Source: Lentilactobacillus parabuchneri DSM 5707 = NBRC 107865
GTDB taxonomy: Bacteria; Bacillota; Bacilli; Lactobacillales; Lactobacillaceae
DNA: 64,000 nt
Assembly (NCBI RefSeq): GCF_001435315.1
Contig: NZ_AZGK01000009.1
Span: 1 to 64,000, forward strand
Direction of reading: 5' to 3'
Below are positions 68-14,893 of the stretch, piece by piece. The stretch's first letter is position 1, and every line of letters starts with the position of its first letter. Both the position numbers and the translations under genes were made by a program. The notes under the pieces are model-generated. The model saw only the letters and a program-made list of their open reading frames with translations, was not told where the DNA came from and did not search any database.

Positions 68-111
68 GATAATATCAGTTTGTTGTCGCATTTTCCGGAT
101 TGATTTATTTT

Positions 112-184
112 GCCGTTTTAGCTCAGAAGGTAGAGCATTTCCATGGTAAGGAAAAGGTCCCGGGTTCAAATCCCGGAAACGGCT
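112..184 (+). tRNA. tRNA-Thr (anticodon GGU)
   Basis: A complete 73-nt cloverleaf can be drawn. The acceptor stem is GCCGTTT/AAACGGC with discriminator T. The D arm is GCTC..GAGC, the anticodon stem TTTCC/GGAAA with loop ATGGTAA, and the T arm CCCGG/CCGGG with loop TTCAAAT. Loop positions 34-36 read GGT, so it decodes ACC/ACU threonine codons. CCA is not encoded. Confidence 0.93.
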
Positions 185-563
185 TACTTAAAAGGGTTAA
201 ACCAGCTCATAAAAACAAATGATTGGGTCGGGTCAAAACTGAATGTTTTGGTCCGACTTTTTTAGCCTCAATGTACCTAGTTGAATCGTATGCTAAAGTA
301 TAGTTCCCGGCTGTCAAAGCCAATGAGCCAATCATCCAAGCCTAAGATGGTTGGCTGTTTGCTTTGCAATTTGAAAGCCGATTACAATTTTTGCCCACAC
401 GCTTTTATTGTCTTTAAATTCATATAATTCATTTGGAAGTGAATATACCTCAAAAAAGTAATAGTGTTTCTGGATAGTTTCACCAGATTTTGGGAATGAA
501 GGCGCTTAAAAATGGTAAACTTACTATGTACATTATTTTACTTACTCTAGGGGGGATTATCGT
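185..563. other. Intergenic region between tRNA-Thr and the heme-uptake operon
   Basis: No coding sequence was seen in these 379 bases. They hold the tRNA terminator (227-263), a ten-pair hairpin without a T run (326-356, agccaatcat / atggttggct), and an 18-base imperfect palindrome at 427-444 (attcatttggaagtgaat) that could be an operator. A strong ribosome binding site (aggggggat) precedes the ATG at 564. No clear Fur or PerR box was found, although heme loci are often under such control. Confidence 0.5.
227..263 (+). terminator. Terminator after tRNA-Thr
   Basis: Long hairpin (GTCGGGTCAAAAC / GTTTTGGTCCGAC with a G-U pair) followed by TTTTTT. It closes the rRNA/tRNA unit. The inner CAAAAC/GTTTTG pairing recurs in other terminators of this window. 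Confidence 0.8.
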
Positions 564-1742
564 ATGAAAAAGCGATTAATGCATTTCATTCAATTAGTTT
601 TTGTTGCAATTATTTTTACAATAGCAGGAGGGGCGTTCGCTAACACTACCAGGGCCGACTCTGCAAATTTGAGTGATGGGATTTATACCGTCCCGGTCAC
701 ACTGTTAAAGAGTGGGAGTAGCGCTACTTCCATGGCCAACCATTTCTTTGATCAAACTGCCAATGTCACTGTTTCTAAGGGAAATTACAAGACAGTTTTG
801 ACGACCAACGGTGCCAACTATATTGCGTCCATATCAATGGGTGGGCAATCAGTTGGTCCAACGATTACCTCGGGGAATAACGGGACGTTGACATTCAACT
901 TGACCAACCCAAGCAACATCATTCCAGTTAGTTTTACGCTGTACAATATTCCACTGATCAACACAATGCAGGAATCAGCTGACTTTTCATTTAACTGGGC
1001 AAACGCCACTAAACAGGCTGATTTACCCGAGGATACAAGTACAACCACTGACACAACACCCGAAGCTGATAGTTCCAGTGCGACTTCATCAAGTACAACC
1101 AGCACAACAACACAACCGGCAACGCCGACAACAACTAAGACGACCACAACTACGACCACAACCAAGAAATCAAGTGTACCAACCACGACACGGACCTATG
1201 TTGTGTTAAAAGGCGATTCAAATTCAAAATCGATGGCCAACAAGTACTACACACGAAAAGCGGTTATTAAGAAAGTTGCCAAGCACTATAATGTTCAACT
1301 TAAAGTTGCCTACAAGAAGAGCCTTAAACTAGGATCCAAGGCTGTTCGTCCAGTGACCATTAATGGTAAAAAAGTCAAAGCGTCAACCGTTACGTATGGT
1401 AAATCAGGCAGTAACTACACTATGACCTATTCATTTAATATCGCCTCACTTAAGACCTTAAAGCATGTGATTAAAGGGTCTATTCACGTCGTTGTGCCAT
1501 ACGCTAACATCAGCACAACTTGGCCGATTCGTTTTAAATTTAGCCAGAGCGCACCCGCTAAAGCACATAAACACGCGGTCGCTTCAGCTGCCGTCATCAA
1601 TGGGTCGAGTTCTGCACAACCTTCACAAGAAAAATTGCCACAGACGAGTGACGCAAGTGAAAACGGCCTATCATTTCTCGGCTTCGTTTTAGCCGGTGGA
1701 TTGTCTTTTGTTTGGGGGAATAGCCATGAAATTCTCAAGTAA
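564..1742 (+). CDS. Cell-wall anchored NEAT-domain (heme-binding family) surface protein, two NEAT domains, LPQTS motif
   Basis: The 392-residue protein has an N-terminal signal peptide (KKR then a hydrophobic stretch, cut near residue 31). Two NEAT-like domains follow at about 37-148 and 211-330. Each starts with the family's short helix (SMANHFF, SMANKYY) and ends in a VxVP..FKF-type strand. A Thr/Ser-rich linker at about 154-205 joins them. The C-terminus carries a sortase signal: LPQTS at 358-362, a hydrophobic stretch and a short tail with a terminal Lys. NEAT proteins capture heme or hemoproteins at the surface and relay heme inward. By alignment with IsdA strand 8, neither domain has the axial Tyr (Ile/Trp in domain 2), so heme binding by this protein is uncertain. 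It is first gene of the heme operon. The SD is aggggggat. Confidence 0.85.
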   Translation: MKKRLMHFIQLVFVAIIFTIAGGAFANTTRADSANLSDGIYTVPVTLLKSGSSATSMANHFFDQTANVTVSKGNYKTVLTTNGANYIASISMGGQSVGPTITSGNNGTLTFNLTNPSNIIPVSFTLYNIPLINTMQESADFSFNWANATKQADLPEDTSTTTDTTPEADSSSATSSSTTSTTTQPATPTTTKTTTTTTTTKKSSVPTTTRTYVVLKGDSNSKSMANKYYTRKAVIKKVAKHYNVQLKVAYKKSLKLGSKAVRPVTINGKKVKASTVTYGKSGSNYTMTYSFNIASLKTLKHVIKGSIHVVVPYANISTTWPIRFKFSQSAPAKAHKHAVASAAVINGSSSAQPSQEKLPQTSDASENGLSFLGFVLAGGLSFVWGNSHEILK

Positions 1743-2547
1743 ATTCAAGTTGTTACTTGGGTTGGTGATGACATTGGGACTATTTGCCGTTGCTTCACCC
1801 AATGCAAATGCCCAGTCGATTTCTTATCACCCACTAAAATATGGGACGAATCAAACCTCGATGGCGGACGGGTACTTCGTCAAACCAGCGCAAGTCGTCG
1901 TTAAAGATCACATGTACTATGTCACAATGCAAATTAAGACTGCTAAGAGCTTGTCATCGTACCCCGTTAAAGTGATGTGGGTAAACGGCCGCGCACCGCT
2001 CAACGTTCGTAAAGCAAAGGATAGTGCCGGTAATTCGCATTTGTATTATTCATTTTATGCAAAGAGTCTTAGTAAACGGATTAATGCCAAGTTGGCAATT
2101 GACGTTCCCAAAGTTTATAAGGCCCGTCATTTAATCTCATTTAAATTCAGCACAGCGGGCTTGCCAAGCCTCGGCAGTGCCCATCGAAGTGTGACGACCA
2201 ATTCGAGTCACACAACCGCAACAACGGCTCAAAAAGCCGCAAATTCAAGCACTTCCAGTCAACCAAAAAACAAAGCCAATAAAACATCCAGTCAGTCACC
2301 GAAAGCAACCAAGAAGCATCAGTCGAAAAAAGCAACCAGCAAGAAGGCTGCTAAGAAAGAACCCAAAAAAGCTTCCAGTAGTTCCTCAACGCAGCCTGCT
2401 AAGAATGAGTCAACGACTTCCAAACCAGCCAAGAAAACTGCTGCCAAGCCAGTGACAACCAAGAAGAGCGGGATTCCTTGGATTGTTGGCGGTGTGACGT
2501 TGATTGCTGGTGTTTCTGCAGGTTTGTGGATTTACTTTAGACATTAG
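1726..2547 (+). CDS. Membrane-anchored NEAT-domain heme-binding protein
   Basis: The ATG at 1726 is preceded by gggggaat and gives 273 residues. The gene overlaps the previous one by 17 bases, indicating coupled translation. A signal peptide (1-30, ending NANA) precedes one NEAT domain (about 31-150), which carries the helix TSMADGYF and the strand VPKVYKARH...FKF. Here a Tyr with a His four residues later aligns with the YxxxY heme-iron motif of IsdA/IsdC, so this is the best candidate heme carrier of the pair. A very basic Lys/Ser/Ala-rich spacer (about 150-240) could cross the wall. A C-terminal transmembrane segment (about 248-270) ends in RH, with no LPxTG. Its position between the wall-anchored NEAT protein and the IsdE-like binder suggests an IsdC-like relay role. 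Confidence 0.85.
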   Translation: MKFSSKFKLLLGLVMTLGLFAVASPNANAQSISYHPLKYGTNQTSMADGYFVKPAQVVVKDHMYYVTMQIKTAKSLSSYPVKVMWVNGRAPLNVRKAKDSAGNSHLYYSFYAKSLSKRINAKLAIDVPKVYKARHLISFKFSTAGLPSLGSAHRSVTTNSSHTTATTAQKAANSSTSSQPKNKANKTSSQSPKATKKHQSKKATSKKAAKKEPKKASSSSSTQPAKNESTTSKPAKKTAAKPVTTKKSGIPWIVGGVTLIAGVSAGLWIYFRH

Positions 2548-2561
2548 GGGGCACTTCGGAA

Positions 2562-3467
2562 ATGAAAGGATCTCGTAAGATTGCCTTTGTTGTGCTCGCA
2601 GCTGTCTTGGTGGTTGGCGCGCTTTGTGGTATTTTTATCAGTCAAAGCGGTGCTGCCAATAAGCCCAAGAAGCCAAAGATCGTCGCCACAACGTTTGCGG
2701 TGGTTCAAATAGCCGACAAGTTGGATTTGCCACTTGTTGGCGTTCCAACCACTCAAAATAAGATTCCTGCTCGTTATGCCCACGCTACTCGGGTCGGAAA
2801 TCCGATGAACCCAAGTGTTGAAAAAATCGCAGCGCTCAAACCGACTGCGGTTTATTCAGTCACGACATTAAAAGATCAGTTTGGCAAAGCGTTTAAACAA
2901 CGTCATATACAACCGCATTTTCTGAATCTGACCAGCGTTGCGTCGCTTAAACGGACTATTTCAAGTATGGGGACGCAGTATCATCGAACCCGACAGGCCA
3001 AGGCGGCTGTCCGGGAAATCGATCAGTTTGAAAATCAAGTTAAAGCAGTTGCTCAAAAACACCGGGTCAAGCCACGGGTGTTGATTTTAATGGGTCTTCC
3101 CGGCGCGTCTTACATGATTGCCACAAATCGCTCATACGTGGGTGACTTGGTCGAAATCGCCGGTGGGAACAATGTTTTTGCGTCAAAGACTCAGGAATTT
3201 ATTCAACCAAATGATGAAGCGATCAAAAAAGCCCGGCCACAGGTCATCTTGCGGTTGGCTCATGCATTACCAAATATGGTGATTCCGCAATTTGATTCGG
3301 AGTTCAAATCGGATCCAATGTGGAAGACGGTTCCGGCTGTCAAAAATCACCGAGTTTATAATCTAGAGGAACCCAACTTTGATGCCACTGCGAATATGCG
3401 CGCACCCCAGGCACTCAAAATTGTGTCTAACTGGCTATACCCTCAGCAGGGGAGTGGTCAGAAGTGA
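2562..3467 (+). CDS. isdE: IsdE-like heme ABC transporter substrate-binding protein
   Basis: The 301-residue protein follows Staphylococcus aureus IsdE along most of its length. Shared blocks include GNPMNPSVEK, LILMGLPG, SYVGDLVEIAGG and LRLAHALP. The two heme axial ligands of IsdE (Met78, His229) have counterparts at Met82 and His234. It should take heme from the NEAT proteins and pass it to the permease. The N-terminus is a hydrophobic segment with a Cys at residue 22, but the preceding GAL is a poor lipobox, so it may be an uncleaved membrane anchor rather than a lipoprotein. The gene overlaps the permease by 4 bases (GTGA), so they are translationally coupled. Confidence 0.88.
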   Translation: MKGSRKIAFVVLAAVLVVGALCGIFISQSGAANKPKKPKIVATTFAVVQIADKLDLPLVGVPTTQNKIPARYAHATRVGNPMNPSVEKIAALKPTAVYSVTTLKDQFGKAFKQRHIQPHFLNLTSVASLKRTISSMGTQYHRTRQAKAAVREIDQFENQVKAVAQKHRVKPRVLILMGLPGASYMIATNRSYVGDLVEIAGGNNVFASKTQEFIQPNDEAIKKARPQVILRLAHALPNMVIPQFDSEFKSDPMWKTVPAVKNHRVYNLEEPNFDATANMRAPQALKIVSNWLYPQQGSGQK

Positions 3468-4429
3468 GTCGTGCTGAAAAACTATGGTATCCGATTGTCT
3501 TGACGTTACTCATCATTACGATTGTCATCTCGTTGATGGTGGGAGCCAGCTTCATTTCGCTTCAACAAATCATCAGTGCCTTTTCTGGCGGCAATCCCAA
3601 TCAGCTCAGCATTTTAACCAGTATTCGGCTTCCGCGGATCTTCGCTGCCATGCTTTGTGGTGGCATGCTGGCGGTGGCAGGGGCTGTGAGTCAGGCAGCT
3701 TTTCGAAACGTATTGGCGGACCCCAGTATTTTGGGTGTGACCAGTGCCGCTGATTTCTTTATTTTAATTGGCGCAATGTTGGTGCCGACCTTTCCGGGAA
3801 ACAAGTTCGTTTTCGCGTTGATTGGCGGCTTGGTTGCCTTGGCTTTGTTGACCAGTAAATCGGCGTTAAGCAGTCCCTACCGCCTGATAATTATCGGTGT
3901 TGCAATGATGCTGACTTTTACAGGATTTGAGCAGCTGTTTTCAAACGGAATGGGTGTTCAGACAACGGGTTCGTTTAATGGCATTACTTGGTCGCAGACA
4001 GAAGTCTTGCTGTTTCTCGGCGTCAGCGGCATGTTTGTCGCGGTGTTTCTTTCGCCGTGGGCAAATTATTTGAAACTATCTACCGAACAGCTCCAGACTA
4101 AAGGCGTTTCGGCCTCCATGATGCGGATCGGATTATTATGTGTGGTCGTCTTTTTGTCATCCAGCGTTTCATCGGTGGTTGGGACAATTCCGTTCATGGG
4201 AATTGTTGTGCCCAACATCGTCCGCTACCTGGTGGGGCGGGATTATCAGACAATTATTCCGCTTTCGATGCTCATGGGCGCTTGGCTGCTGTTAGTGATT
4301 GACACGATTGGGCGAATTATCGTCTTGCCGAGTGAACTGTCCGCAGCCGTTATTATGACCGTCATTGGGGGGCCATTTTTGATTATGATGCTGCAAAGGA
4401 AGAATTTTAATGGAATTAAATCAAGTTAG
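3464..4429 (+). CDS. isdF: Heme ABC transporter permease (FecCD/IsdF family)
   Basis: The 321-residue, strongly hydrophobic protein has about 8-10 membrane segments and FecCD/BtuC-family signatures (RLPRIFAAMLCGGMLAVAGA, GTIPFMGIVVPNIVRYLVG). Members form the membrane channel for siderophores, B12 or heme; the neighbouring IsdE-like binder points to heme. It starts at a GTG that overlaps the isdE stop codon. Its 3' end overlaps the ATPase gene by 20 bases. Only one permease gene is present, so it probably works as a homodimer. Confidence 0.88.
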   Translation: MSRAEKLWYPIVLTLLIITIVISLMVGASFISLQQIISAFSGGNPNQLSILTSIRLPRIFAAMLCGGMLAVAGAVSQAAFRNVLADPSILGVTSAADFFILIGAMLVPTFPGNKFVFALIGGLVALALLTSKSALSSPYRLIIIGVAMMLTFTGFEQLFSNGMGVQTTGSFNGITWSQTEVLLFLGVSGMFVAVFLSPWANYLKLSTEQLQTKGVSASMMRIGLLCVVVFLSSSVSSVVGTIPFMGIVVPNIVRYLVGRDYQTIIPLSMLMGAWLLLVIDTIGRIIVLPSELSAAVIMTVIGGPFLIMMLQRKNFNGIKSS

Positions 4430-5192
4430 CTATCATTATCCACAACAAAAAATGCTTCTAAATCAAATAACGGCAACCGTTCCGGAAGACCAAATTTTAT
4501 CGATTATTGGTCCCAACGGCGCAGGCAAGTCAACCTTGCTGAAACTGCTGGCGGGATTAATCCAGCCGACTTCCGGTAAGGTCTTATTAAACGATCAGCC
4601 AATTTCAAATTTTTCACGAAAAACCTTGGCCACCAAAGTTGCCGTTGTCAGCCAGCAAAATGATATTTTTGACGATATGAAAGTGATTGACATTGTTAAA
4701 ACCGGACGACTGGCACACCACAATTTGTTGGCAACGATTGATGATTCTGAAGTTGCTGACTACATTACAGCAACCAATTTGGCCGAGTTGGCGCAACGAC
4801 CGATTTCATCATTGTCGGGTGGTCAGCGACAGCGTGTTTGGTTAGCGTCTGCGTTGGCACAGGAGCCACAATATTTATTGCTGGATGAACCGACGACCTA
4901 CTTGGATATTCACTACCAAGCCGAATTAATGACAATTTTAAAGCGGCTCCACGAACAACAGCAGATGACAATTATTATGGTGCTTCATGATATCAATCAG
5001 GCGTTTCGAATCAGTGATCAATTATGGTTGGTAAAAGATGGCCAACTGGTCAAGCAGGGGCGTCCAGCTGATTGCTATGACCAACAACTGTTAGAGCAGA
5101 TTTTTGGCACCAATATTCAAATCGTCGATGTGCCAAATTATGGCCGCTACATCGTAGAAATCGCCGATGCCCAGCCCAATTTTGCTGAATGA
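4410..5192 (+). CDS. Heme ABC transporter ATP-binding protein (FepC/BtuD family)
   Basis: The 260-residue ATPase has Walker A (GPNGAGKST, about residues 34-42), signature (SSLSGGQRQRVWLA) and Walker B (YLLLDEPTTYLDI), followed by the switch His (VLHDIN). The family powers FecCD-type importers. The ATG is preceded by aggaag and lies inside the permease gene. It is the last gene of the heme operon; a bidirectional terminator follows within 20 bases. S. aureus IsdEF lacks its own ATPase gene and borrows FhuC, whereas here the ATPase is part of the operon. Confidence 0.9.
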   Translation: MELNQVSYHYPQQKMLLNQITATVPEDQILSIIGPNGAGKSTLLKLLAGLIQPTSGKVLLNDQPISNFSRKTLATKVAVVSQQNDIFDDMKVIDIVKTGRLAHHNLLATIDDSEVADYITATNLAELAQRPISSLSGGQRQRVWLASALAQEPQYLLLDEPTTYLDIHYQAELMTILKRLHEQQQMTIIMVLHDINQAFRISDQLWLVKDGQLVKQGRPADCYDQQLLEQIFGTNIQIVDVPNYGRYIVEIADAQPNFAE

Positions 5193-5210
5193 CGATATCT
5201 AAAAGACATG

Positions 5211-5261
5211 AAAAAACGGACAACCAAAGCAAATCACATTTGCCATGGTTGTCCGTTTTTT
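5211..5261. terminator. Bidirectional terminator between heme operon and ndh
   Basis: Fourteen-pair outer stem (aaaaacggacaacc / ggttgtccgttttt) with an inner hairpin gcaaat/atttgc, A run on one side and T run on the other. It separates two convergent transcription units. Confidence 0.85.
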
Positions 5262-5281
5262 ATCTATTAATCGCTAATGAC

Positions 5282-6913
5282 TTATTTTTTTGGTTCATAG
5301 ACAGCTTTTGGTGTCCCATAACGTGCTTTGCCCCAAGTCTTTTGCAACCATGGAACAAACCAGTAATCGATCCCAAATGAACGACCTGAACCATTCATTA
5401 ATGCAATGGCTGCGAAGATAATCCATGCGTGAGCCCAAGTTGGAATGCCCATCAAGAAGATGATGACCAATGCCAGGTCGGCCAGCCATGTGAACCAACC
5501 GAAGAAGATTAAGCACCCGATGATGCCTTCAAGTACGGTTAAGCCCATGCCAACCGGAATAATGGTATTGATCGAAAAGGCATCCACCATTAAGACGATT
5601 CCAAGGAATAATCGTAACGGCACGCTCCATAAAACGTTGCTTCGACGAGCGGTGTTGCCACCAAAGACGGTCCGGTTATTTTCAACTCTAAAGAATTCGT
5701 CAAGCAGGTACATCATCATGAAGTAGCCGGAACGAATTCGCCAGAAGTAAAGCAGGTTGGTTCCGTGCTTCATGATGGTTGCCAGCCAGCCACGAACACG
5801 TTTGCCGCCAAAGACTTGGGCAATGCCATAGTAGGCACCAAATGATACCGTGAAGCCCATATTCTTGTCTTTGAATTCGGTGTAGTTCTGATTGCCTTCA
5901 ATGTCAGCTGCAATGTTTTCGGCTGATACAATTGCTTCATTTTCAGCTTCCTGAGCAGTTTGTGGAACGGCACGTTCAGCACCCTGTTCAGTGGCGTTGG
6001 CGTCATCTCCGGCAACATAAATACTCTTGTCTTCAAAGCCTTTAGCTTGAAGGTATTGGTTGGTAACCAAACGACCACCACGGCCAGCATCAATTCCGAA
6101 ACTGTCGGCAGTGTGATTAGTTTTAACACCAGCGGTCCAAATCAACGTGTTGGTTGCAATGGAGTCTTGATCCTTAATGTCAACACTGTCCGGGTTAACC
6201 GAGGTAATCATTGATGACTTGCGGATTTCGATGTTGTTTTTCTTGATGTAAGCTTCAGCATGAGCGGCGTTGGTTCGGTCAAGCATGTTGATAATCGTTG
6301 GTGCAGCTTCAACCAAAATAATTTTAATTTCACTCGGATCAAGCTTGTAATCTTTTGCCAAAACTTTTCGGTAGTCGATTAATTCACCAATCGTTTCAGC
6401 ACCGGTAAACCCGGATCCACAGACAACCAATGTTAACATTGCCTTTCGTTTCTCTGGGTCTCGTTCAACAGCGCCTCGGGCAATAATTTCTCGGATGTGC
6501 TCTTTAAGCTGCAGCGCATCTTCCATTGACCAAAGTGTGAAGCCATTTTCTTTAACACCGGGAGTGCCAAAGTCGTTGGGTTCACCACCCATACTGATCA
6601 GCAGGCTATCAAATGGGTAGGTACCATTTTCACCAATGACCTTTTTATTTTCCTTATCAACTTCGGAAATGTTGTCCGTCACAATTTGGACATTCTTTTG
6701 CTTGTGAAAAATCCGTTGCAAGTCGCATTCTACACTGCTTGGCGCAACACGTTCTGTGGCAACTTCATGCAACCGGGTCAGGTAAGTGAAGTACGAGTGA
6801 CGATCAATCAACGTAATCTGAACGTCAGTGTTACTCTTAAAATGTTTAGCAAGCCGTTTGGTGGCGTAAACACCGGCAAAACCGGCACCAACAACGACGA
6901 TATTCTTTGTCAT
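5282..6913 (-). CDS. ndh: Type II NADH dehydrogenase with C-terminal DoxX-like membrane domain
   Basis: The 543-residue protein begins with an FAD Rossmann motif (VVVGAGFAG), has an NAD-binding motif (VVCGSGFTGAE, near residue 160) and the FAD contact AGDDAN ahead of PQTAQEA. This is the layout of non-proton-pumping NDH-2 enzymes, which pass electrons from NADH to quinone at the membrane. NDH-2 is usually near 400 residues. Here about 115 further residues form several hydrophobic segments resembling DoxX (LRLFLGIVLM..., MNGSGRSFG). The extension may anchor the enzyme or add a function. The SD agggggaa precedes the ATG. The gene is divergent from cydA and would feed electrons to cytochrome bd. 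Confidence 0.9.
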   Translation of the reverse strand: MTKNIVVVGAGFAGVYATKRLAKHFKSNTDVQITLIDRHSYFTYLTRLHEVATERVAPSSVECDLQRIFHKQKNVQIVTDNISEVDKENKKVIGENGTYPFDSLLISMGGEPNDFGTPGVKENGFTLWSMEDALQLKEHIREIIARGAVERDPEKRKAMLTLVVCGSGFTGAETIGELIDYRKVLAKDYKLDPSEIKIILVEAAPTIINMLDRTNAAHAEAYIKKNNIEIRKSSMITSVNPDSVDIKDQDSIATNTLIWTAGVKTNHTADSFGIDAGRGGRLVTNQYLQAKGFEDKSIYVAGDDANATEQGAERAVPQTAQEAENEAIVSAENIAADIEGNQNYTEFKDKNMGFTVSFGAYYGIAQVFGGKRVRGWLATIMKHGTNLLYFWRIRSGYFMMMYLLDEFFRVENNRTVFGGNTARRSNVLWSVPLRLFLGIVLMVDAFSINTIIPVGMGLTVLEGIIGCLIFFGWFTWLADLALVIIFLMGIPTWAHAWIIFAAIALMNGSGRSFGIDYWFVPWLQKTWGKARYGTPKAVYEPKK

Positions 6914-7041
6914 GGATATTTCCCCCTTTAAAAATAGCTGAAAAATAAGATTGATTTAATAAACAAAATACAATAATAGCATAAACTAATCTTATCACCA
7001 TTATTATAAATGGGTGGTGGTCAATTGTCTAATGAAAGCCA

Positions 7042-7058
7042 TTGCAATAATTTCACAA
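7042..7058. promoter_or_regulatory. Possible Rex (redox) operator, degenerate
   Basis: The sequence ttgcaataatttcacaa has ends matching the Rex consensus TTGTGAA-N4-TTCACAA, with a perfect right half. The left half is poor and the spacing is one base short. Rex commonly represses cyd genes in Firmicutes, so the position is plausible, but the match is weak. Confidence 0.3.
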
Positions 7059-7097
7059 GTGAATATTTTTTATTTTTAGATGTGAGAAACGCTGAAT

Positions 7098-7111
7098 TGA
7101 AGACGGTTACA
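7098..7111 (+). promoter_or_regulatory. cre-like CcpA site upstream of cydA
   Basis: The sequence tgaagacggttaca fits the catabolite-responsive consensus TGWAARCGNTNWCA at all but one position (G at position 5). It lies about 75 bases upstream of the cydA -35 element. CcpA control of cyd genes is known in Bacillus. Confidence 0.55.
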
Positions 7112-7184
7112 GTTTTTTTATTCATTTGTGTCCCTTGGCGTACCAGATTATGCATATTTTTAGATAATTATTTAGCATTTTAAT

Positions 7185-7213
7185 TTGAATGTTGGCCTAT
7201 TTCTATATACAAT
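7185..7213 (+). promoter_or_regulatory. cydA promoter
   Basis: Sigma-A type elements TTGAAT (7185-7190) and TACAAT (7208-7213) with a 17-base spacer. The start codon of cydA is about 50 bases downstream of the -10 box. Confidence 0.65.
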
Positions 7214-7263
7214 AGGGGTATATGAGGATAACTCATTAATATTTAGTAAGGGGGGATACAACA

Positions 7264-8718
7264 ATGTTAAATATTGGCATTACGATGCTTGGTTTGTCGC
7301 GGTTTCAGTTTGCGATGACCACGGTGTTTCATTTCTTCTTCGTACCGTTTTCTATTGGTTTAGCTTTTATTGTCGCAATTATGGAAACGGTCTACGTTGT
7401 TAACAAGGATGAAACATACAAAAATATGGCAAAATTCTGGGGGAAGATTTTCCTATTTAGTTTTGCTGTAGGTGTTGTTACAGGTATTATTCAAGAGTTC
7501 CAGTTTGGTATGAACTGGTCAGATTATTCACGATTCATGGGGGACATTTTCGGAGCGCCACTTGCAATTGAAGCTTTGGCCGCCTTCTTCCTTGAATCAA
7601 CTTTTATCGGTCTTTGGATGTTTACATGGGAGCGGTTTAACAAAACCATTCACTGTTTATTCATTTGGCTGACAGCATTTGGCTCAACTTTATCCGCTTT
7701 ATGGATCTTAGCAGCCAACAGTTTTATGCAAAACCCCGTTGGTTACGCGATGAACGCAGCTCAACACAAGGTTGAAATGACCAGCTTCTCTGCTGTTATC
7801 ATGAACCGTCAACTGTGGAATGAATTCCCACACGTTATCTTCGGTGCATTCTTAACGGCCGCATTTGTTGTTGCAGGATGTTCTGCATGGCGTTTACTTA
7901 AGAAGGATCATGAGAACTTCTATCGTAAATCCATGAAGGTTTCATTGATTATTGGTCTTTGTGCCTGCTTAGGTTCCGTTTGGTCAGGTGATACACAAAC
8001 TCGTTACCTGATTAATAACCAACCTATGAAGTTTGCCGCAATGGAAGGTCTCTACAAGAATTCAACGGACAAAGGTGATTGGGCATTAGCTGCCGGATTC
8101 AACGGTCCTAAGAAGACTTGGTCGATTGAAATTCCATACGCCTTAAACATTTTGGGCCATCACAGTTTAAACGGAACGTTTAAGGGTCAAAAGACGGTCA
8201 ATAAAGAATTAAAGGCTAAGTACAACAAGAACGATCAAACCAAGAATTACTATGTTCCAACCAAGACATTGTTCTGGAGCTTCAGAATTATGGCAATTTC
8301 TGCAGGATTGTTTGGCTTAGTTGCCATCATTGGCCTGTGGTTCAACCGTAAGAAGTCTCAGACCATTATGAGACAACGCTGGTTCCTATATTTGATGGGA
8401 CTGATGGTATGGCTTCCATTTATCGTTAATACCTGCGGCTGGTTCGTCACTGAATTCGGTCGTTATCCATGGGTTGTTTACGGCTTGTTGACAATCGCCG
8501 ATGCGGTTTCGCCAACGTCTACCGTGGCAAGTTTGATGTTCACCAATATCGTTTACTTCTTGATATTTGCTTCATTAGGAGCAGTCATGGTTATCTTGAG
8601 TCACCGTGTTCTCAAGCAAGGTCCCGACTCAGTCTTGACTGATGGATATTCAACTGAACCCCAGGATGATGCTAAAAAGGTAGATCCATATGAAATGGGG
8701 GCGGCTCATAATGACTAG
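7264..8718 (+). CDS. cydA: Cytochrome bd quinol oxidase subunit I
   Basis: The 484-residue multi-pass protein is the heme-carrying subunit of cytochrome bd, which oxidises quinol and reduces oxygen to water. Heme ligand positions are retained: His23 (TTVFHFFF), His190 (NEFPHVIFG) and Glu397 (GWFVTEFG). The usual GRQPW motif reads GRYPW at 399-403. The length fits the short-Q-loop class of Firmicutes. The SD aagggggg precedes the ATG. Its last 8 bases overlap cydB. Lactobacilli generally cannot make heme, so activity should depend on heme supplied by the import operon upstream. Confidence 0.96.
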   Translation: MLNIGITMLGLSRFQFAMTTVFHFFFVPFSIGLAFIVAIMETVYVVNKDETYKNMAKFWGKIFLFSFAVGVVTGIIQEFQFGMNWSDYSRFMGDIFGAPLAIEALAAFFLESTFIGLWMFTWERFNKTIHCLFIWLTAFGSTLSALWILAANSFMQNPVGYAMNAAQHKVEMTSFSAVIMNRQLWNEFPHVIFGAFLTAAFVVAGCSAWRLLKKDHENFYRKSMKVSLIIGLCACLGSVWSGDTQTRYLINNQPMKFAAMEGLYKNSTDKGDWALAAGFNGPKKTWSIEIPYALNILGHHSLNGTFKGQKTVNKELKAKYNKNDQTKNYYVPTKTLFWSFRIMAISAGLFGLVAIIGLWFNRKKSQTIMRQRWFLYLMGLMVWLPFIVNTCGWFVTEFGRYPWVVYGLLTIADAVSPTSTVASLMFTNIVYFLIFASLGAVMVILSHRVLKQGPDSVLTDGYSTEPQDDAKKVDPYEMGAAHND

Positions 8719-9724
8719 TTATCAATTTATCTGGTTTCTGTTAATTGGTGTGTTATTTAGTGGCTTCTTCTTCCTGGAAGGATTTGACTTTGGTATCGGG
8801 ATGTCGGTTCGATTCTTTGCCAAGAACCGGGCAGAACGTGATACCGTTATCCAAACCATCGGACCGCACTGGGATGGAAATGAAGTTTGGTTAATCACTG
8901 CCGGTGGTGCCATGTTTGCATCATTCCCAATGTGGTACGCATCACTATTTTCAGGCTACTACATCGTTTTGTTCTTGATTTTGGTTGCTTTAATCTTCAG
9001 AGGCGTTTCGTTTGAATTCCGTGCGAACATGCAGACGGAAAAATGGCGGAACTTCTGGGAGTGGGCATCAACCATTGGTAGCTTCTGTGCTGCTTTCTTA
9101 TTTGGGATGATGTTCACCAGTATGATTGAAGGCGTTCCAATTGACAAGAACGGCGACATTTATGGGACGTTTACCACTTACGTTAACTGGTTCTCAATCG
9201 TCGGTGGCGTCGCAGTTTCACTGCTTTGCTTCATCCACGGTTTGAACTTCTTAAGATTAAAGACGAGTGGTGAATTAAGAGAACGGGCTGAAAAATGGAG
9301 TAAAATCCTTTACCCTGTCTTACTTGCCGGTGAAGTTGTCTTTGTGATTTTGCTTTACTTAACCACTGATTTCTTCACACGCAAGCCAGTTTCAACCTGG
9401 TCAATCTTAATTGCCCTGGTTATCTTCACATTAGCTGCATGGTGGGGCACACAATCCAGTCATGACTGGGCATCATTTATTGCCAGTGGTTTATCACTGA
9501 TCAGTATCGTTGTCTTGATCTTCAACGGTTTATTCCCAAGAGTGATGATTGCGACCAACAGTGCCAACTCAATTTTAATTAAAAATGCATCAAGTTCACC
9601 ATATACACTGCACCTGATGACAATTTTGACGTTTACGATCCTGCCAATTGTTCTGATTTACTTCATTTGGAGTTACTGGGTATTTTACAAGCGGATCAAA
9701 TCGCCAAAACAAGCAGTTGAATAA
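8711..9724 (+). CDS. cydB: Cytochrome bd quinol oxidase subunit II
   Basis: The 337-residue multi-pass protein carries the subunit II hallmark near its N-terminus (FFLEGFDFGIGM) and DGNEVW further on. It pairs with CydA in the membrane. The ATG at 8711, preceded by gggggcgg, overlaps the cydA stop region, so translation is coupled. A terminator and then a large inverted repeat follow, which may separate cydAB from cydDC in transcription. Confidence 0.95.
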   Translation: MTSYQFIWFLLIGVLFSGFFFLEGFDFGIGMSVRFFAKNRAERDTVIQTIGPHWDGNEVWLITAGGAMFASFPMWYASLFSGYYIVLFLILVALIFRGVSFEFRANMQTEKWRNFWEWASTIGSFCAAFLFGMMFTSMIEGVPIDKNGDIYGTFTTYVNWFSIVGGVAVSLLCFIHGLNFLRLKTSGELRERAEKWSKILYPVLLAGEVVFVILLYLTTDFFTRKPVSTWSILIALVIFTLAAWWGTQSSHDWASFIASGLSLISIVVLIFNGLFPRVMIATNSANSILIKNASSSPYTLHLMTILTFTILPIVLIYFIWSYWVFYKRIKSPKQAVE

Positions 9725-9763
9725 TATTTCAACGCTTTAAGTTATCCTTAAAGTGGTAAACGC

Positions 9764-9807
9764 AAAAGCGACAATGGACGGATCGTTCATTGCCGCTTTT
9801 ACTATTT
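9764..9807 (+). terminator. Terminator after cydAB
   Basis: Stem aaaagcg-a-caatg / cattg-c-cgctttt (one mismatch) closing on a short loop, followed by a T-rich tail. Confidence 0.7.
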
Positions 9808-9814
9808 TAAAAAA

Positions 9815-9964
9815 CGGAGTGTGCCAAAAGGCGGGTTTGCTTCCGCCAAAGAGGCTTGGCATTTCATGGCCGGCGTAGCATAACCTAGAATGACTTTTTG
9901 AGCTGAAAGCTCGGAAAGTTATTCGTAGTTATGCCTAGGAAGCGGCCTTTTGGCACACGTTCCG
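9815..9964. repeat. Large nested inverted-repeat element (possible repeat unit or structured RNA)
   Basis: The outer arms GTGTGCCAAAAGGC (9819-9832) and GCCTTTTGGCACAC (9945-9958) are perfect complements, extended outward by CGGA/TCCG. Inside lie a small GGCGG/CCGCC hairpin, a second arm pair GCATAAC (9878-9884) / GTTATGC (9928-9934), and a central hairpin GAGCT-GAA-AGCTC (9900-9912). There is no ORF and no T run at its ends, so it is not a simple terminator. It could be a dispersed intergenic repeat or a structured RNA. Confidence 0.7.
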
Positions 9965-9984
9965 GCTATATAAAATAAAAAAAG

Positions 9985-10030
9985 CAAGGGGGCCGTTGGC
10001 AAAACGTTAATTTTATCACAGCCCCTTTCC
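9985..10030. terminator. Terminator-like hairpin upstream of cydD
   Basis: Stem aagggggc / gccccttt around an interior CAAAAC...TTTTATCAC segment of the kind seen in other terminators of the window. The flanking A and T runs are modest, so direction is unclear. Confidence 0.5.
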
Positions 10031-10145
10031 TATTTAAAAAACACCTAAAACATCCAAATACTTTGCTTTCTGATATTTCATTGTGCGCAATAATTCTTTA
10101 TACTAGAGTTTGTAAGTTAATTTTTCAGATGGGGGAGTGAAAAGT

Positions 10146-11876
10146 TTGATTGATAAAAGATTGTTCGATCTGCCCGGGATGAAAAAATACGCTGCGATTT
10201 TGGCAGTATTAGTATTCATTCAAGCAGTCGCAATAATTGCTCAGGCACGGGCGCTTTCGATTGCCATTGTTAATTTATGGAATTTGCAGTCGATTAACAC
10301 GATTGTTGCACCAACGATTGTGTTCACCATCGCCTTTTTAGCCCGTCATTTACTGACGGTGACTGAGAATCGGGTGCTGTTTCCATTTGTCGAAAAGACC
10401 AGTGGCGATATGCGTGAAGACCTGATGGCGAAGATTTTTCGACTGGGTCCTGCAGAGATTGATAAACGGGGAACCGGAAACATTGTCACGATGGCTCTGG
10501 AAGGAATCGATCAGGTCCAGACTTATTTAATGCTGGTGGTCATCAAAATATTGGATATGTCGATTACACCGTGGCTGATTTTACTTTACGTTCTTTTCCT
10601 GCGCTGGGAACAGGCAATTTTCTTATTTGCTATTTTTCCAATTATCATTTTGTTTATGATTATTCTTGGCCTCGCAGCGCAGAGCAAAGCCGACCGTCAG
10701 TATGAAGGCTATCAGCGATTATCCAATCACTTTGTTGACACCTTGCGGGGGTTGCCAACCCTTAAACAGTTAGGGTTGTCCAAACGATACGCGGATAACG
10801 TTTATGACGTCAGTGAATCTTATCGAAAAGAAACTATGTCCACCTTAAAAATTGCGCTGACGTCCACCTTTGCCCTGGACTTCTTCACTACGTTGTCAAT
10901 TGCCGTGGTTGCCGTCTTCCTTGGTTTTGATTTGATGGACGGCAAAGTCTTATTGTTGCCAGCCTTGACGATTCTGGTTTTGGCGCCTGAATACTTTTTG
11001 CCAATCAGAAATTTTGCAAACGATTACCACGCCACTTTGAACGGGAAGAATGCCATGACGGCTGTCTTGGACGTTTTGAACGAACCCGAAATGAGTGAAC
11101 GCGAAATCATGCCGGCATTCAAATGGGATAACGAATCGACACTTAAGCTGGATCAGGTTGCCTTAACCTATCCAGATACTGAAGAGGCGACGTTAAAAGA
11201 CATCAATGTCGATATTAAAGGGATGCAAAAGATTGGTATTATTGGCGCATCCGGTTCTGGTAAATCGACGTTGATCAACTTAATTGGCGGCTTCTTATCA
11301 CCAGACAAGAATGATCAAATTATTTTAAACGGCAAGTCGTTACCACATTTGAACCAGGCTGCTTGGCAGAAAAACTTTTTGTACATTCCACAAAATCCGT
11401 ATTTGTTCCACGCAACATTGGCTGATAACATTTCCTTTTATGTGGCGGATGCGACCACGGAGGCAATTGAAAATGCCGCTGAGAAGGCCGGATTAAGCGA
11501 TTGGATTAAGACGCTTCCGGATGGCTTGAACACCATGATTGGTGAAGGTGCCAGGACCGTCAGTGGGGGTCAGGCACAACGAATTGCCCTTGCCAGAGCG
11601 TTTTTGGATCCAAGCAGAAAAGTCTTGCTATTTGACGAGCCGACTGCCCATTTGGATATTGAAACCGAAGCCAGCTTGAAAAAGGATATCCTGCCGGTTT
11701 TTGAAGACCATTTGGTTTTCTTCGCCACCCACAGACTTCACTGGATTGGTGAGATGGATTATGTGCTCGTCATGGATCACGGGCGCGTGGTTGAACAGGG
11801 AACACCCGACGAATTGGCCAAACGCAATGGTGATTACGTCAAACTTCGTTCTGAAATGGAGGCGGCTGATCTATGA
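10146..11876 (+). CDS. cydD: Cytochrome bd assembly ABC exporter, CydD-type subunit
   Basis: This fused transmembrane-ATPase half of the CydDC exporter exports thiols and is needed for cytochrome bd assembly. The N-terminal half has the CydD-like AIIAQARALSIA segment and several membrane helices. The C-terminal ATPase has Walker A (GASGSGKST), signature (VSGGQAQR) and Walker B (LLFDEPTAHLD). A GTG at 10137 lies too close to the SD (gggggag), so the TTG at 10146 is preferred, giving 576 residues. It overlaps cydC by 4 bases. Bacillus literature calls the first gene cydC; the name here follows the E. coli-type subunit. Confidence 0.9.
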   Translation: MIDKRLFDLPGMKKYAAILAVLVFIQAVAIIAQARALSIAIVNLWNLQSINTIVAPTIVFTIAFLARHLLTVTENRVLFPFVEKTSGDMREDLMAKIFRLGPAEIDKRGTGNIVTMALEGIDQVQTYLMLVVIKILDMSITPWLILLYVLFLRWEQAIFLFAIFPIIILFMIILGLAAQSKADRQYEGYQRLSNHFVDTLRGLPTLKQLGLSKRYADNVYDVSESYRKETMSTLKIALTSTFALDFFTTLSIAVVAVFLGFDLMDGKVLLLPALTILVLAPEYFLPIRNFANDYHATLNGKNAMTAVLDVLNEPEMSEREIMPAFKWDNESTLKLDQVALTYPDTEEATLKDINVDIKGMQKIGIIGASGSGKSTLINLIGGFLSPDKNDQIILNGKSLPHLNQAAWQKNFLYIPQNPYLFHATLADNISFYVADATTEAIENAAEKAGLSDWIKTLPDGLNTMIGEGARTVSGGQAQRIALARAFLDPSRKVLLFDEPTAHLDIETEASLKKDILPVFEDHLVFFATHRLHWIGEMDYVLVMDHGRVVEQGTPDELAKRNGDYVKLRSEMEAADL

Positions 11877-13615
11877 AAAATTTCCGCAAAACGTTCGCAA
11901 ACGATACCTGGGTCATGCCTTACCTGAGAAAATACAAAGGTTTGTTGATTCTGGTTTTGTTTTTGGGCTTTATGACCTTCTTTTCAGGCGGTGCGTTGAT
12001 GTTTAACTCCGGCTTTCTGATTAGTGAGGCGGCTCGGCGGCCATCAAGCATTATTTATATTTACGTCCCGGTTGTCCTGGCCCGGGCCTTTGGGATTGCC
12101 CGGCCAGTCTTTCGGTATGTTGAACGATTGACCAGTCATAACTGGGTGTTAAGAATTGTCTCTGATTTTAGAAAAAAGCTGTATCAAACAGTCGAAAAAA
12201 AGGCCTCGGCCATTCAGCGGGCCCATCAGACCGGGGATATTTTAAGTATCTTGGCTGATGATATTGACCACATCGAAAACCTCTACTTGAGAACCGTCTT
12301 TCCAATGGTGATTGGGTGGCTGTTATACATTTTCGTCGTGATTGGCGTCGGGTCGCTCAACTGGGCGGTCGGCTTGCTGCTATTGTTATTATTGGGGATT
12401 ATCACGATCATTATGCCATTGATGTCGGTTGCCACTAACGGGGTTCGTGAGTTCAAACAGCATCAGATTCAACACGAATTTTATACCAATTTGACCGATG
12501 AAGTTATGGGATTGGGTGACTGGTTGATTTCAGGCCGTTACACTGATTTTATGAACCTGCAGAAAAAGCCGATTAAAGAGATTGCCGCTTTACGAAAACA
12601 GGATCACTATTTCCAATGGTGGCGTGAATTCTTTGTTCAATTTATTATCTTATTGACCACGATTACGCTGCTGGTTTGGTCGGCTTATCAATTTACAGCT
12701 ACCAAATCGATGGCGAACTGGGTCGCTGCCTTTGCCTTGGCAATCTTCCCGGCAGTTTCGCCGTTTGTTAATATGAGCCAGGGTGCCAGCGAATGGCCGG
12801 TTTACCGACGCTCAATTGAACGGGTTAATGCTTTGGATATCAGTGACGACAAGCCAATCGATCAACAGAAATTGGCCGGTTCTTTTAAAGAGCTGAAAAT
12901 CAACCAACTCACTTTCAAATATCAAGATGGCAATCGAAACGTGGTTAAACACATTTCAATGGATATTCATCCCGGTGAAAAAATTGCCTTACTGGGGCCA
13001 AGTGGGACTGGAAAGAGTACCTTCTTAAAATTAGTGGTTGGCGATTTGACCCCAACCGATGGGGAAGTGTTGATTAACGGTCAAAATATTTTGAACTTGC
13101 AATCAGTTCGATCCTCACTGTTTGGGATTTTGGACCAGCAGCCTTATTTATTTGATACGACGGTTATGAATAACGTTCGATTGGGCAACACGAACGCATC
13201 TGATCAGCAAGTTAAAGATGCCTTGGCGGCCGTTGGACTGAAAGATTTAATCGAGTCATTGCCGGATAAGTACGATACGGAAGTGCAAGAAGCCGGTAAA
13301 CGATTCTCGGGTGGTGAGCGACAACGCTTATCACTTGCCAGAATTTTGCTGCAGGATGCACCGATCATCATTTTGGATGAGCCAACCGTCAGTCTGGATC
13401 CAATTACCGAAAAGAAGTTGTTGGATAAGGTCTTTGAGTTACTGCATGATAAGACGATTATCTGGGTAACCCACCACTTGGCGGGAATTACCCACGTCGA
13501 TCAGGTCAGATTTATGGAAAATGGCGAATTTGATATGCAGGGGACACCCCAGGAGCTCTATCAAACCGAAGCCAGATTTAGACAATTGTACGATTTGGAT
13601 CGCGGAAGAGCGTGA
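11873..13615 (+). CDS. cydC: Cytochrome bd assembly ABC exporter, CydC-type subunit
   Basis: The 580-residue partner of CydD has the CydC-specific RYVERLTSHNWVLR segment near residues 80-95, six membrane helices, then Walker A (GPSGTGKST), signature (FSGGERQR) and Walker B (IIILDEPTVSLD). It starts with ATGA overlapping the cydD stop. The two make a heterodimeric exporter in the cytoplasmic membrane. A bidirectional terminator follows. Confidence 0.92.
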   Translation: MKNFRKTFANDTWVMPYLRKYKGLLILVLFLGFMTFFSGGALMFNSGFLISEAARRPSSIIYIYVPVVLARAFGIARPVFRYVERLTSHNWVLRIVSDFRKKLYQTVEKKASAIQRAHQTGDILSILADDIDHIENLYLRTVFPMVIGWLLYIFVVIGVGSLNWAVGLLLLLLLGIITIIMPLMSVATNGVREFKQHQIQHEFYTNLTDEVMGLGDWLISGRYTDFMNLQKKPIKEIAALRKQDHYFQWWREFFVQFIILLTTITLLVWSAYQFTATKSMANWVAAFALAIFPAVSPFVNMSQGASEWPVYRRSIERVNALDISDDKPIDQQKLAGSFKELKINQLTFKYQDGNRNVVKHISMDIHPGEKIALLGPSGTGKSTFLKLVVGDLTPTDGEVLINGQNILNLQSVRSSLFGILDQQPYLFDTTVMNNVRLGNTNASDQQVKDALAAVGLKDLIESLPDKYDTEVQEAGKRFSGGERQRLSLARILLQDAPIIILDEPTVSLDPITEKKLLDKVFELLHDKTIIWVTHHLAGITHVDQVRFMENGEFDMQGTPQELYQTEARFRQLYDLDRGRA

Positions 13616-13649
13616 TCTAAAATTCGGCTGATCGGATACTTTTACCGAT

Positions 13650-13706
13650 AAAAAATAAGAGGAGCGACGACAAAACAGTTGTTTTGTCACCGCTCCTCTT
13701 ATTTTT
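13650..13706. terminator. Bidirectional terminator between cydC and polyprenyl synthase
   Basis: Two-storey hairpin: outer stem AATAAGAGGAGCG / CGCTCCTCTTATT, inner stem GACAAAAC-AGTT-GTTTTGTC, with A and T runs at the two ends. Confidence 0.85.
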
Positions 13707-13719
13707 AATAACCGCTCAC

Positions 13720-14697
13720 TTACTGTTTGCGCGTCAACAACATGCGTGTCAATTTTTCCAGATCCTGCTTGGACTTTTGTTCCGGCAGCTTGGCAATTAG
13801 CCCAAGTGCCTTATCCGTTAACTCATCGGCAACCTCAATGGCTTTTTTTAGGCCGCCGGATTGAATGACAATCGTTTTGATGGCTTGAATGTCTGTATCC
13901 GTTAATTGATCTTTTTTGTCCAGCAGTGGCTTCAATGAGTCTGGTACCAATTGGTTGGCAAAAATCAGCGGCAGGGTATAGACCCCGGACTTCAAATCCT
14001 CTAAGACGGGTTTTTTAGTTTGCATTGTATCGCCACTGTAATCTAAAATATCGTCTAAAATTTGGTAAGCCTGGCCAATTGTAATCCCAATTTCGCCGCC
14101 CAGTTCAACGATTTCTGGTGCCGCATGCGTCACAATCGCACTCTGCTGGAAACAAAGTTTAAACAACTCGGCGGTTTTTCCGGTAATTTCATGGAAATAA
14201 TCGGCAGACGTCAACTGTTGATTAAAGTTGTACTTCATTTGGTCCAATTCGCCTGTCAGGATAACCTGCATGGCGTCGATGTGTCGCTTCATATCAGCCG
14301 GATCCTGCGTTGATTTGAGGACCTGGTTAAAGTAACACGTAAACAGGTAATCACCGGCGTAAATGGCGTTTTTTTGGCCATATTGGGTATGAATGGTGGC
14401 GACTCCGCGGCGCAAGGGAGATTCATCAATCACATCGTCATGAATGAGTGTCGCGACGTGAAGTAATTCGACTGCCGCGGCACCGGCTTTAACGACTGCC
14501 GGGTCGACGGGTTCGCCAAACTCGGAGTATATGTAAAAGAACCCGGGGCGAAGGAACTTGCCGCCTGATTTTAATAAGTCAACAATCTTATGATGAATGG
14601 GCTGATTGGAAAGATTTACTGCGTTAAGCAAATAAGGTTCCAAAGCGATTAATTTTAAATTAATACGCGGAAATTGGCGCCAAAGTGCATGAACCAT
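13720..14697 (-). CDS. Polyprenyl diphosphate synthase (menaquinone side chain)
   Basis: This trans-prenyltransferase of about 325 residues has both Asp-rich motifs (HDDVIDES and DDILDYSG), KFLRPG and GEL/QMK segments. The family condenses isopentenyl diphosphate into C30-C45 chains for quinones. It is the large subunit type of heptaprenyl diphosphate synthase (HepT/IspB-like). The ATG at 14697 follows gaggtg; an upstream TTG frame extension is less likely. Placed beside cydABDC, it fits supply of the quinone tail for the respiratory chain. Product chain length cannot be read from sequence alone. Confidence 0.85.
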   Translation of the reverse strand: MVHALWRQFPRINLKLIALEPYLLNAVNLSNQPIHHKIVDLLKSGGKFLRPGFFYIYSEFGEPVDPAVVKAGAAAVELLHVATLIHDDVIDESPLRRGVATIHTQYGQKNAIYAGDYLFTCYFNQVLKSTQDPADMKRHIDAMQVILTGELDQMKYNFNQQLTSADYFHEITGKTAELFKLCFQQSAIVTHAAPEIVELGGEIGITIGQAYQILDDILDYSGDTMQTKKPVLEDLKSGVYTLPLIFANQLVPDSLKPLLDKKDQLTDTDIQAIKTIVIQSGGLKKAIEVADELTDKALGLIAKLPEQKSKQDLEKLTRMLLTRKQ

Positions 14698-14756
14698 GGT
14701 ACACCTCAATTTAACAAAATTTTAACTACAACCTCTAAGATACAAATTCCTAAGGG

Positions 14757-14794
14757 ACTTGTCAATTAACAGTATGTGGAAATAATTGTCAAGT
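14757..14794. promoter_or_regulatory. Inverted repeat in divergent promoter region
   Basis: Arms acttgtcaatt (14757-14767) and aattgtcaagt (14784-14794) are complementary except at one position and lie between two divergent genes. A -10-like TACAAT (14799-14804) follows on the plus strand. It may be an operator for a regulator I cannot name. Confidence 0.4.
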
Positions 14795-14893
14795 AGACTA
14801 CAATGGATTTATGAAATATCGTTTTAAATCATTGCCAGCTTGAAACAGCCGGTGATAACGGGTTTCTTGGGATTATTTGAGGAGGAATTATTC

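Follow-up and report, generated by a model that had tools for sequence, protein, structure and literature searches.

How heme-auxotrophic lactic acid bacteria import the heme with which they respire is an open question, and a locus at the start of the DNA analyzed here raises it in compact form. The window (the whole stretch analyzed, namely the first 64 kb of one contig, NZ_AZGK01000009.1, from a 2.57-Mb genome of the genus Lentilactobacillus) carries between positions 564 and 14709 five isd-type genes, which encode two NEAT proteins with three NEAT domains in total, an IsdE-type protein, a permease, and an ATPase, followed by a convergent ndh, divergent cydAB-cydDC genes, and a convergent polyprenyl synthase gene. 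The original prediction named these genes and proposed that they form a functional unit in which a dedicated importer feeds cytochrome bd. All of them are present as open reading frames where it had placed them, and the gene overlaps that it mentioned are real (17, 4, 20, 8, and 4 bases). We consider it probable that the Isd-type importer brings intact heme into a heme-auxotrophic Lentilactobacillus as the cofactor of cytochrome bd. The functional link holds up, albeit indirectly: the importer is nested within genomes that encode the oxidase, NEAT proteins show no link to catalase, the genome gave no catalase match and no heme oxygenase was detected in it, key IsdE residues are conserved, and the genes adjoin ndh-cyd.

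The importer genes all lie on the forward strand. NEAT protein 1 (564-1742; PF05031, 72.7 bits in two stretches) has a signal peptide, a Thr/Ser-rich linker, and an LPQTS sorting signal; NEAT protein 2 (1726-2547; PF05031, 55.3 bits) has one NEAT domain, a low-complexity Lys/Ser/Thr stalk, and a C-terminal membrane helix that would serve as its anchor, with no sorting signal. Both surface proteins score above the PF05031 cut-off, as expected for an Isd-type system, and the same gene row supplies the predicted IsdE-type heme-binding protein (2562-3467; TIGR03659, 356.7 bits, cut-off 298.65), a FecCD-family, IsdF-like permease (3464-4429; PF01032, 231.6 bits), and the importer ABC ATPase (4410-5192; assigned by family matches). 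The best matches of this IsdE in the PDB are Listeria Lmo2184 (5joq) and Staphylococcus aureus IsdE (2q8p). Its residues M82 and H234 align with a Met and a His of the S. aureus protein and were also aligned with 5joq, and all 13 Lactobacillaceae sequences compared keep both; we take these places to be the heme-ligand positions of IsdE. As an aside, one relative (G326) has an in-frame stop within isdE (G326:C233:68737-69531), and another (G364) has split ndh and NEAT 1 frames (L081, 72-1705; L080, 1354-2570), each of which reflects either decay or an error of draft assembly.

The NEAT proteins depart from the best-known pattern, since the YxxxY heme motif of NEAT strand 8 is absent from both of them. 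This does not rule out membership of the Isd group, because only 165 of 343 known NEAT domains carry the motif (PMC4143258). NEAT protein 2 has instead Y131-K-A-x-H135 (YxxxH; with R in one L. brevis row), and every one of the 36 aligned sequences, which come from eight named genera, keeps Y131 and H135 (36 of 79 candidate rows, in which some genomes are repeated, plus that of the window; L141, which ends before the strand, was left out). YxxxH is a known minority type: a 2014 survey found it in 31 of 343 domains, and a cluster comprising 50 domains from Lactobacillales is described there as well (PMC4143258). The structure model of NEAT protein 2 is weak (mean pLDDT 67.4), and NEAT structures top its fold search with weak E-values, mixed with other beta folds; our reading of this protein is therefore based on sequence. 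In NEAT protein 1, profile alignment places I316 and W320 at the YxxxY positions of domain 2, and domain 1 lacks Tyr in its last strand (133-145). There, M135 is nearly invariant and is a candidate Met ligand, with two registers possible, and the profile alignment with NEAT protein 2 stops before this strand. The fold search with the model of NEAT protein 1 is filled with NEAT structures, the best likeness being to two-NEAT hemoglobin receptors and to single NEAT domains, so this protein is possibly a receptor for a heme protein or a non-binding helper. No sortase or NPQTN signal is present among the five isd genes (sortases elsewhere in the genome were not searched for).

The respiratory genes follow directly. 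CydA (7264-8718, forward; cytochrome bd subunit I, 525 bits) has H23, H190, and M343 aligned with mycobacterial CydA, at what are presumably heme-ligand places. Together with cydB (8711-9724, forward; subunit II, 340 bits; TIGR00203, 313.7 bits, cut-off 117.3) and two cydD/C-type ABC genes for cytochrome bd assembly (10137-11876 and 11873-13615, both forward and assigned by family match), this identifies a cytochrome bd. The NDH-2-type NADH dehydrogenase gene ndh (5282-6913, reverse) is so labeled from an above-cut-off match to Pfam Pyr_redox_2 (PF07992, 140.1 bits), its length, and its place, with no NCBIfam NDH-2 model among its matches; ndh adjoins cydA in all 18 cydA-positive Lentilactobacillus genomes, that of the window included. 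The polyprenyl diphosphate synthase (13720-14709, reverse) has both DDxxD motifs, scores below the cut-off of the HepT model (TIGR02748, 192.5 bits, cut-off 456.55), and likely makes a menaquinone side chain. MenA and MenG are encoded away from the locus, and a UbiA/MenA homolog occurs in 18 of 18 cydA-positive and 0 of 6 cydA-negative Lentilactobacillus genomes, a contrast in which genome size is confounded with cyd. Lentilactobacillus buchneri DSM 20057 has menA, menB, menE, and menG only (PMC8303990). Beside the polyprenyl synthase, the window also encodes a glutathione-reductase-like flavoprotein (14888-16222), for which some but not all of the relatives' stretches gave a match, a number of these stretches being cut short.

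One set of 397 Lactobacillaceae genomes, 20 of them below the quality line, was searched for IsdE, NEAT domains, CydA, and catalase. Any IsdE match was obtained in 146 genomes, of which 99 were counted (57 above the cut-off and 42 at 196.9-288 bits) and 47 at ≤89 bits were dropped; NEAT domains were counted at E 0.001 (142 genomes, 131 of them above the cut-off). CydA was found in 283 genomes (28 genera) and catalase in 80 (20 genera). A cydA gene was present in 97 of the 99 genomes with a strong IsdE match and in 186 of the 298 without one, and likewise in 139 of 142 NEAT genomes and 144 of 255 others. Because genomes are related, genera were counted as well: cydA occurred in 17 of 17 genera with NEAT and 11 of 23 without (p 0.0003), and in 15 of 15 genera with IsdE and 13 of 25 without (p 0.001). 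Within Lentilactobacillus, isd is present in 16 of 18 cydA-positive and 0 of 6 cydA-negative genomes, two of the latter being 83-88% complete. The co-occurrence of importer and cyd genes that the original prediction anticipated is thus borne out in a nested form, importer-bearing genomes falling almost wholly within the cydA-positive set. Four genomes (G011, G021, G089, and G156) have a lower-class IsdE-like protein and no NEAT match.

As a control, we used catalase, which is a heme enzyme of another kind and also reflects, to some extent, how rich a genome is. It was found in 26 of 142 NEAT genomes and 54 of 255 others (p 0.52), in 16 of 99 IsdE genomes and 64 of 298 others (p 0.31), and showed no association with CydA (p 0.58). 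Division of the IsdE genomes by score gave a less even result: catalase was rarer with IsdE above the cut-off (3/57 versus 77/340, p 0.001) and slightly commoner with the lower-scoring class (13/42 versus 67/355, p 0.07).

The genome of the window seems unable to make heme from scratch, as judged from its gene complement. No match was found in it to porphobilinogen deaminase (present in 7 of 24 genomes of the genus), HemQ (1 of 24), catalase (1 of 24), or an HO-1-type heme oxygenase (0 of 24). We take IsdG to fall within the ABM fold; the sole ABM-fold protein of this genome scores best as LsrG, although below that cut-off, and no IsdG-type heme-degrading enzyme was identified in it. With no catalase match, catalase was rejected as a user of heme in this genome. 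A heme catalase has been proposed as the reason for a partial effect of heme alone (PMC8303990); this explanation is doubtful, because no catalase was identified in L. buchneri CD034 (PMC4521753), which is, however, a different strain. As observations apart, porphobilinogen deaminase is encoded in G336 (two copies), G355, G249, G180, G304, G316, and G380, among them both genomes that have cyd and lack isd. There it possibly serves cobalamin. In L. farraginis (G364), a second ferrochelatase lies ~1.4 kb from the only HemQ-family gene detected in the genus (G364:C62:2147-2752, 4193-5086), a pair that is possibly a remnant or a gain of a heme pathway.

These features can be joined in one scheme. 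Heme or a heme protein would meet the wall-anchored, two-domain NEAT protein 1, and heme would then pass to the Tyr/His pocket of the membrane-anchored NEAT protein 2. From there it would be handed to the Met/His site of IsdE and pumped inward by permease and ATPase. Within the cell, heme would not be burnt for iron and would be placed in CydAB with the help of CydDC. NDH-2 would feed electrons via menaquinone, the side chain of which would come from the polyprenyl synthase beside cyd and be attached by MenA, and the ring, or the whole quinone, would come largely from outside. Importer and chain would be separate transcription units, most simply neighbors since one event inside the genus. Heme binding, transport, and use are inferred in this scheme.

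Although the original prediction treated the locus as a unit, it does not appear to be one in transcription. The isd genes end at 5192 reading rightward and ndh ends at 5282 reading leftward, and between them lies a hairpin (5211-5261, with 24-bp arms that are 92% complementary) with runs of A and T on its two sides. A simple terminator scan did not list it, and by its looks it is a bidirectional terminator. This hairpin parts isd from ndh, so the genes are not one operon, and we count four units or more in the locus: isd, ndh, cydAB-cydDC, and the polyprenyl synthase. The control region that ndh and cydA were predicted to share does exist (6914-7263) and holds two divergent promoter-like sites, TAGACA-17-TATAAT for ndh (7003-7031, reverse; score 11/12) and TTGAAT-17-TACAAT for cydA (7185-7213, forward; score 9/12). 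Promoter-like sites as such are not above chance in positions 1-16400 (28 found, 29.5 expected); these two are supported because they are conserved in most aligned relatives, and not by scan frequency. The alignment covered 16 of 18 Lentilactobacillus regions, two longer ones being left out, and conservation was least in G372.

Shared regulation was sought in 20 isd upstream regions and 18 ndh-cyd regions, which are related and not independent counts. A Rex-type half-site (TTCACAA or its complement) is present in 12 of 18 ndh-cyd regions (7% of shuffles), including that of the window (7052-7058), and in 6 of 20 isd upstream regions (9% of shuffles), that of the window having none. Loose Rex matches (≤4 of 18 mismatches) occur in 9 of 18 ndh-cyd and 5 of 20 isd regions, compared with ~8% of shuffles. 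Control by Rex, of cyd above all, is therefore possible. The PerR signal is weak (≤4 mismatches; 16 of 20 isd regions, 53% of shuffles). A cre-like site (≤2 mismatches) is found in 16 of 18 ndh-cyd regions (~17% of shuffles), and we do not claim CcpA control because the site directly adjoins the conserved -35 element of ndh and in most cases has no CG core. In the transcriptome of L. buchneri CD034, cydA and cydB rise with oxygen, and of the PerR and Rex sites sought there, the available part of the paper reports one for npr only, and for perR itself (PMC4521753).

Several observations weigh against the proposal that the importer serves cytochrome bd. Related genomes are not independent, so the p-values above overstate the association, and genome size was not a covariate because sizes are listed for few cydA-negative genomes. 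The catalase control shows no trend with NEAT or with the 99 IsdE genomes taken together, but it does with the above-cut-off IsdE class; moreover, the heme users sought were cytochrome bd and catalase only. NEAT matches are lacking in 144 of 283 cydA-positive genomes, about half, and the importer is therefore not generally required for respiration on added heme. Two Lentilactobacillus genomes (G249 and G355) keep cyd without isd, and three genomes have NEAT without cydA (G057, G263, and G376), of which G057 and G376 also have IsdE. NEAT protein 1 lacks the known heme ligand, and heme is not bound by a Bacillus anthracis NEAT domain that retains the first Tyr alone (PMC4143258). In the 38 regions compared, isd and cyd have no full site for Rex, Fur, PerR, or an HrtR-like regulator in common. 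Lastly, the six cydA-negative Lentilactobacillus genomes measure 1.2-2.0 Mb and the 18 cydA-positive ones 2.0-3.3 Mb. Size and cyd are thus confounded inside the genus, and genome reduction alone could therefore produce the pattern there.

That confounding lends some force to a different explanation, according to which the importer takes up heme mainly as an iron source, as in S. aureus, and the link to cyd arises only because the genomes concerned are larger and have undergone less reduction. Isd systems of pathogens do work in this way (PMC5341603). Yet no HO-1-type heme oxygenase was found in the genus (0 of 24 genomes) and the single ABM-fold protein in the genome of the window is LsrG-like, no Fur-like site occurs above shuffled expectation in the 20 isd upstream regions, and catalase does not track NEAT across the family, so not every accessory gene does. 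We regard the iron-source explanation as unlikely.

A related possibility is that the importer carries porphyrins such as protoporphyrin IX besides heme and that a retained ferrochelatase makes heme from them. Ferrochelatase (HemH) is encoded beside an MntH-type metal transporter in the genome of the window (L170, 8509-9525; G000:C2:48532-49455) and may finish porphyrins taken from outside. It is present in 17 of 18 cydA-positive and 0 of 6 cydA-negative Lentilactobacillus genomes (again with genome size confounded), and without porphobilinogen deaminase or HemQ a finished porphyrin would need an outside source. However, G233 has isd and cyd without HemH, G249 and G355 have HemH and cyd without isd, and IsdE keeps a Met and a His that metal-free porphyrin would not need. 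Uptake of porphyrins alongside heme is thus, in our estimate, rather unlikely.

The remaining alternatives concern how the two gene sets came to be neighbors. Of the 16 isd-positive Lentilactobacillus genomes, 13 have isd beside ndh-cyd: in 11 it immediately precedes ndh on a single contig, and in two (G133 and G364) this is presumed because the contigs end exactly at the isd-ndh junction. In G233, G264, and G372, isd lies elsewhere or on another contig. In 11 of these 13, a tRNA-Thr gene precedes isd; the stretch examined in G291 showed none, and in G326 the contig ends. In the window, the tRNA-Thr (GGT; 112-184, forward) forms the boundary before isd, and in some relatives it stands before ndh-cyd with no isd there. 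The original prediction placed the locus after an rRNA operon and tRNA-Thr; the tRNA is confirmed, and of the operon only a 5S-like tail of ~22 bases is visible at the window start (recognized by eye, with no Rfam score), because the contig begins at window base 1. The same tail occurs in 8 of 22 relatives' loci, with tRNA-Thr in all eight.

Some genomes are arranged differently. In G233, the 5S tail and tRNA-Thr are followed ~80 bases later by ndh; isd sits on this contig too (2.10 Mb in length), at a distance of 1.25 Mb. In G249 and G355, tRNA-Thr and ndh-cyd occur without isd between them, the slot holding a group II intron reverse transcriptase with a maturase domain in G249 (L084, 1027-2433) and an IS110-family transposase with other genes in G355 (L085, 927-2096). 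When the cyd tree is rooted on G233, G264, and G372, which is a choice and hence an assumption, G249 and G355 fall inside the clade of the 13 joined genomes (15 genomes together), and the same main groups reappear in the tree of isd. Most simply, isd may have entered an old tRNA-Thr/ndh slot once, before the ancestor of the 15 sampled genomes, and then been lost twice; the opposite direction, in which ancestral neighbors parted in G233, G264, and G372, would be less simple. In a wider tree of 57 isd sets (12 near-duplicate loci left out), sets mostly group by genus, and a single clade of all 16 Lentilactobacillus sets was neither recovered nor rejected (p-AU 0.316). In each of 15 comparisons, isd proteins are less identical to those of the window than cyd proteins are (e.g., 78 versus 91%), and isd therefore evolves faster.

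These data could also be taken to mean that isd is a mobile or hitch-hiking cassette that came to lie next to cyd by chance, a position that would then have no functional significance. Such a view would account for the displaced isd in 3 of 16 isd-positive Lentilactobacillus genomes, for the intron or insertion element in the isd-less slot, and for the absence of cydA or cydB near isd in all 52 loci of other genera, within the ≤10 kb a side examined. It fits poorly with an arrangement that, once joined, was kept in 13 of 15 genomes of the clade, with a nesting of isd and cyd presence that reaches far beyond adjacency, with GC and GC3 of isd equal to background, and with the lack of any flanking direct repeat found at the tRNA end, and we consider an accidental cassette improbable. 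Acquisition of the whole 14-kb stretch as one block at the rRNA/tRNA-Thr site, which the original prediction thought worth testing and which the position directly after the 5S-like tail and tRNA-Thr might suggest, is highly improbable and was rejected on synteny, trees, and composition: ndh-cyd follows tRNA-Thr without isd in G233, G249, and G355, isd mirrors the main groups of the cyd tree and mostly groups by genus in the wide one, and its composition is ordinary. Among the loci of other genera, that of Lactobacillus pasteurii (L149, 7909-12537 and 15080-20226) has isd ~2.5 kb from a putative flavin-based extracellular electron transfer locus with PplA (NF041941, 440.3 bits, cut-off 325), a 632-aa NDH-like protein, a NusG-II protein, and both heptaprenyl synthase components; isd thus adjoins electron transport genes for a second time, here in 1 of the 52. 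Elsewhere in the window, an L31 ribosomal-protein leader RNA was detected at 44970-45003 (RF03156, 34.5 bits, barely above threshold).

Judged by its genes, the system is of a known kind, a real and conserved Isd-type importer beside genes of heme-dependent respiration. It shares NEAT proteins, the Met and His of IsdE, a FecCD permease, and an ABC ATPase with the Isd system of S. aureus and the Hbp-Hup system of Listeria. It differs from these in the YxxxH of NEAT protein 2, in the lack of Tyr at the YxxxY places of NEAT protein 1, and in having no NPQTN signal or sortase among its five genes and no heme oxygenase found; unlike in S. aureus, its heme is likely a cofactor rather than an iron source. 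Lactobacillus sakei and Staphylococcus lugdunensis reportedly use an ECF-type importer, which likewise brings heme from outside the cell and belongs to a protein family different from Isd. Carnobacterium species are also heme-dependent lactic acid bacteria with isd homologs and a cytochrome bd chain, the isd genes having been tied to respiration by prediction (PMC5341603, PMC6857183), although an isdG gene is listed there (PMC6857183); the available parts of these papers contain no mention of isd-cyd linkage. Lactobacilli stimulated by heme and menaquinone, such as L. buchneri DSM 20057 and L. brevis, have cydABCD and partial menaquinone genes, but no importer is named in the available parts of those reports (PMC8303990, PMC2696406). 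When heme plus menaquinone is supplied, the aerobic OD of DSM 20057 increases from 1.5 to 3.4 (PMC8303990), and IsdE has been detected by proteomics on the surface of Lev. brevis (PMC9504196). Within the available parts of open-access papers, which were the scope of the search, with subscription papers outside it, we found none linking Isd to cytochrome bd in Lactobacillaceae. According to a 2021 paper, a bacterium whose genus is abbreviated "E." has no known function for heme import, and a 2024 review states that a high-affinity heme importer has not been described for Lactococcus (PMC11282960).

Against this background, the importer described here is a good candidate for the route by which respiratory heme enters these bacteria. 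Its nested distribution within cydA-positive genomes and the changed residues of its NEAT proteins are what make it of interest. More tentatively, and with somewhat less than an even chance in our estimate, the Isd systems of Lactobacillaceae may constitute a respiratory branch that is kept almost only with cytochrome bd, performs no heme breakdown, and uses an altered NEAT relay (a receptor without Tyr and a YxxxH carrier) to deliver intact heme, or perhaps porphyrin finished by HemH, to the oxidase. If true, this would run counter to published opinion, which holds that a dedicated heme importer may be unnecessary for Gram-positive heme auxotrophs. Because IsdE as defined by its curated model occurs almost only with cytochrome bd, and is its neighbor in a genus for which a response to heme has been demonstrated, it offers a direct gene target, and the two species with cyd and without isd provide natural contrasts. 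The finding may bear on starter-culture yield, oxygen tolerance, and silage stability.

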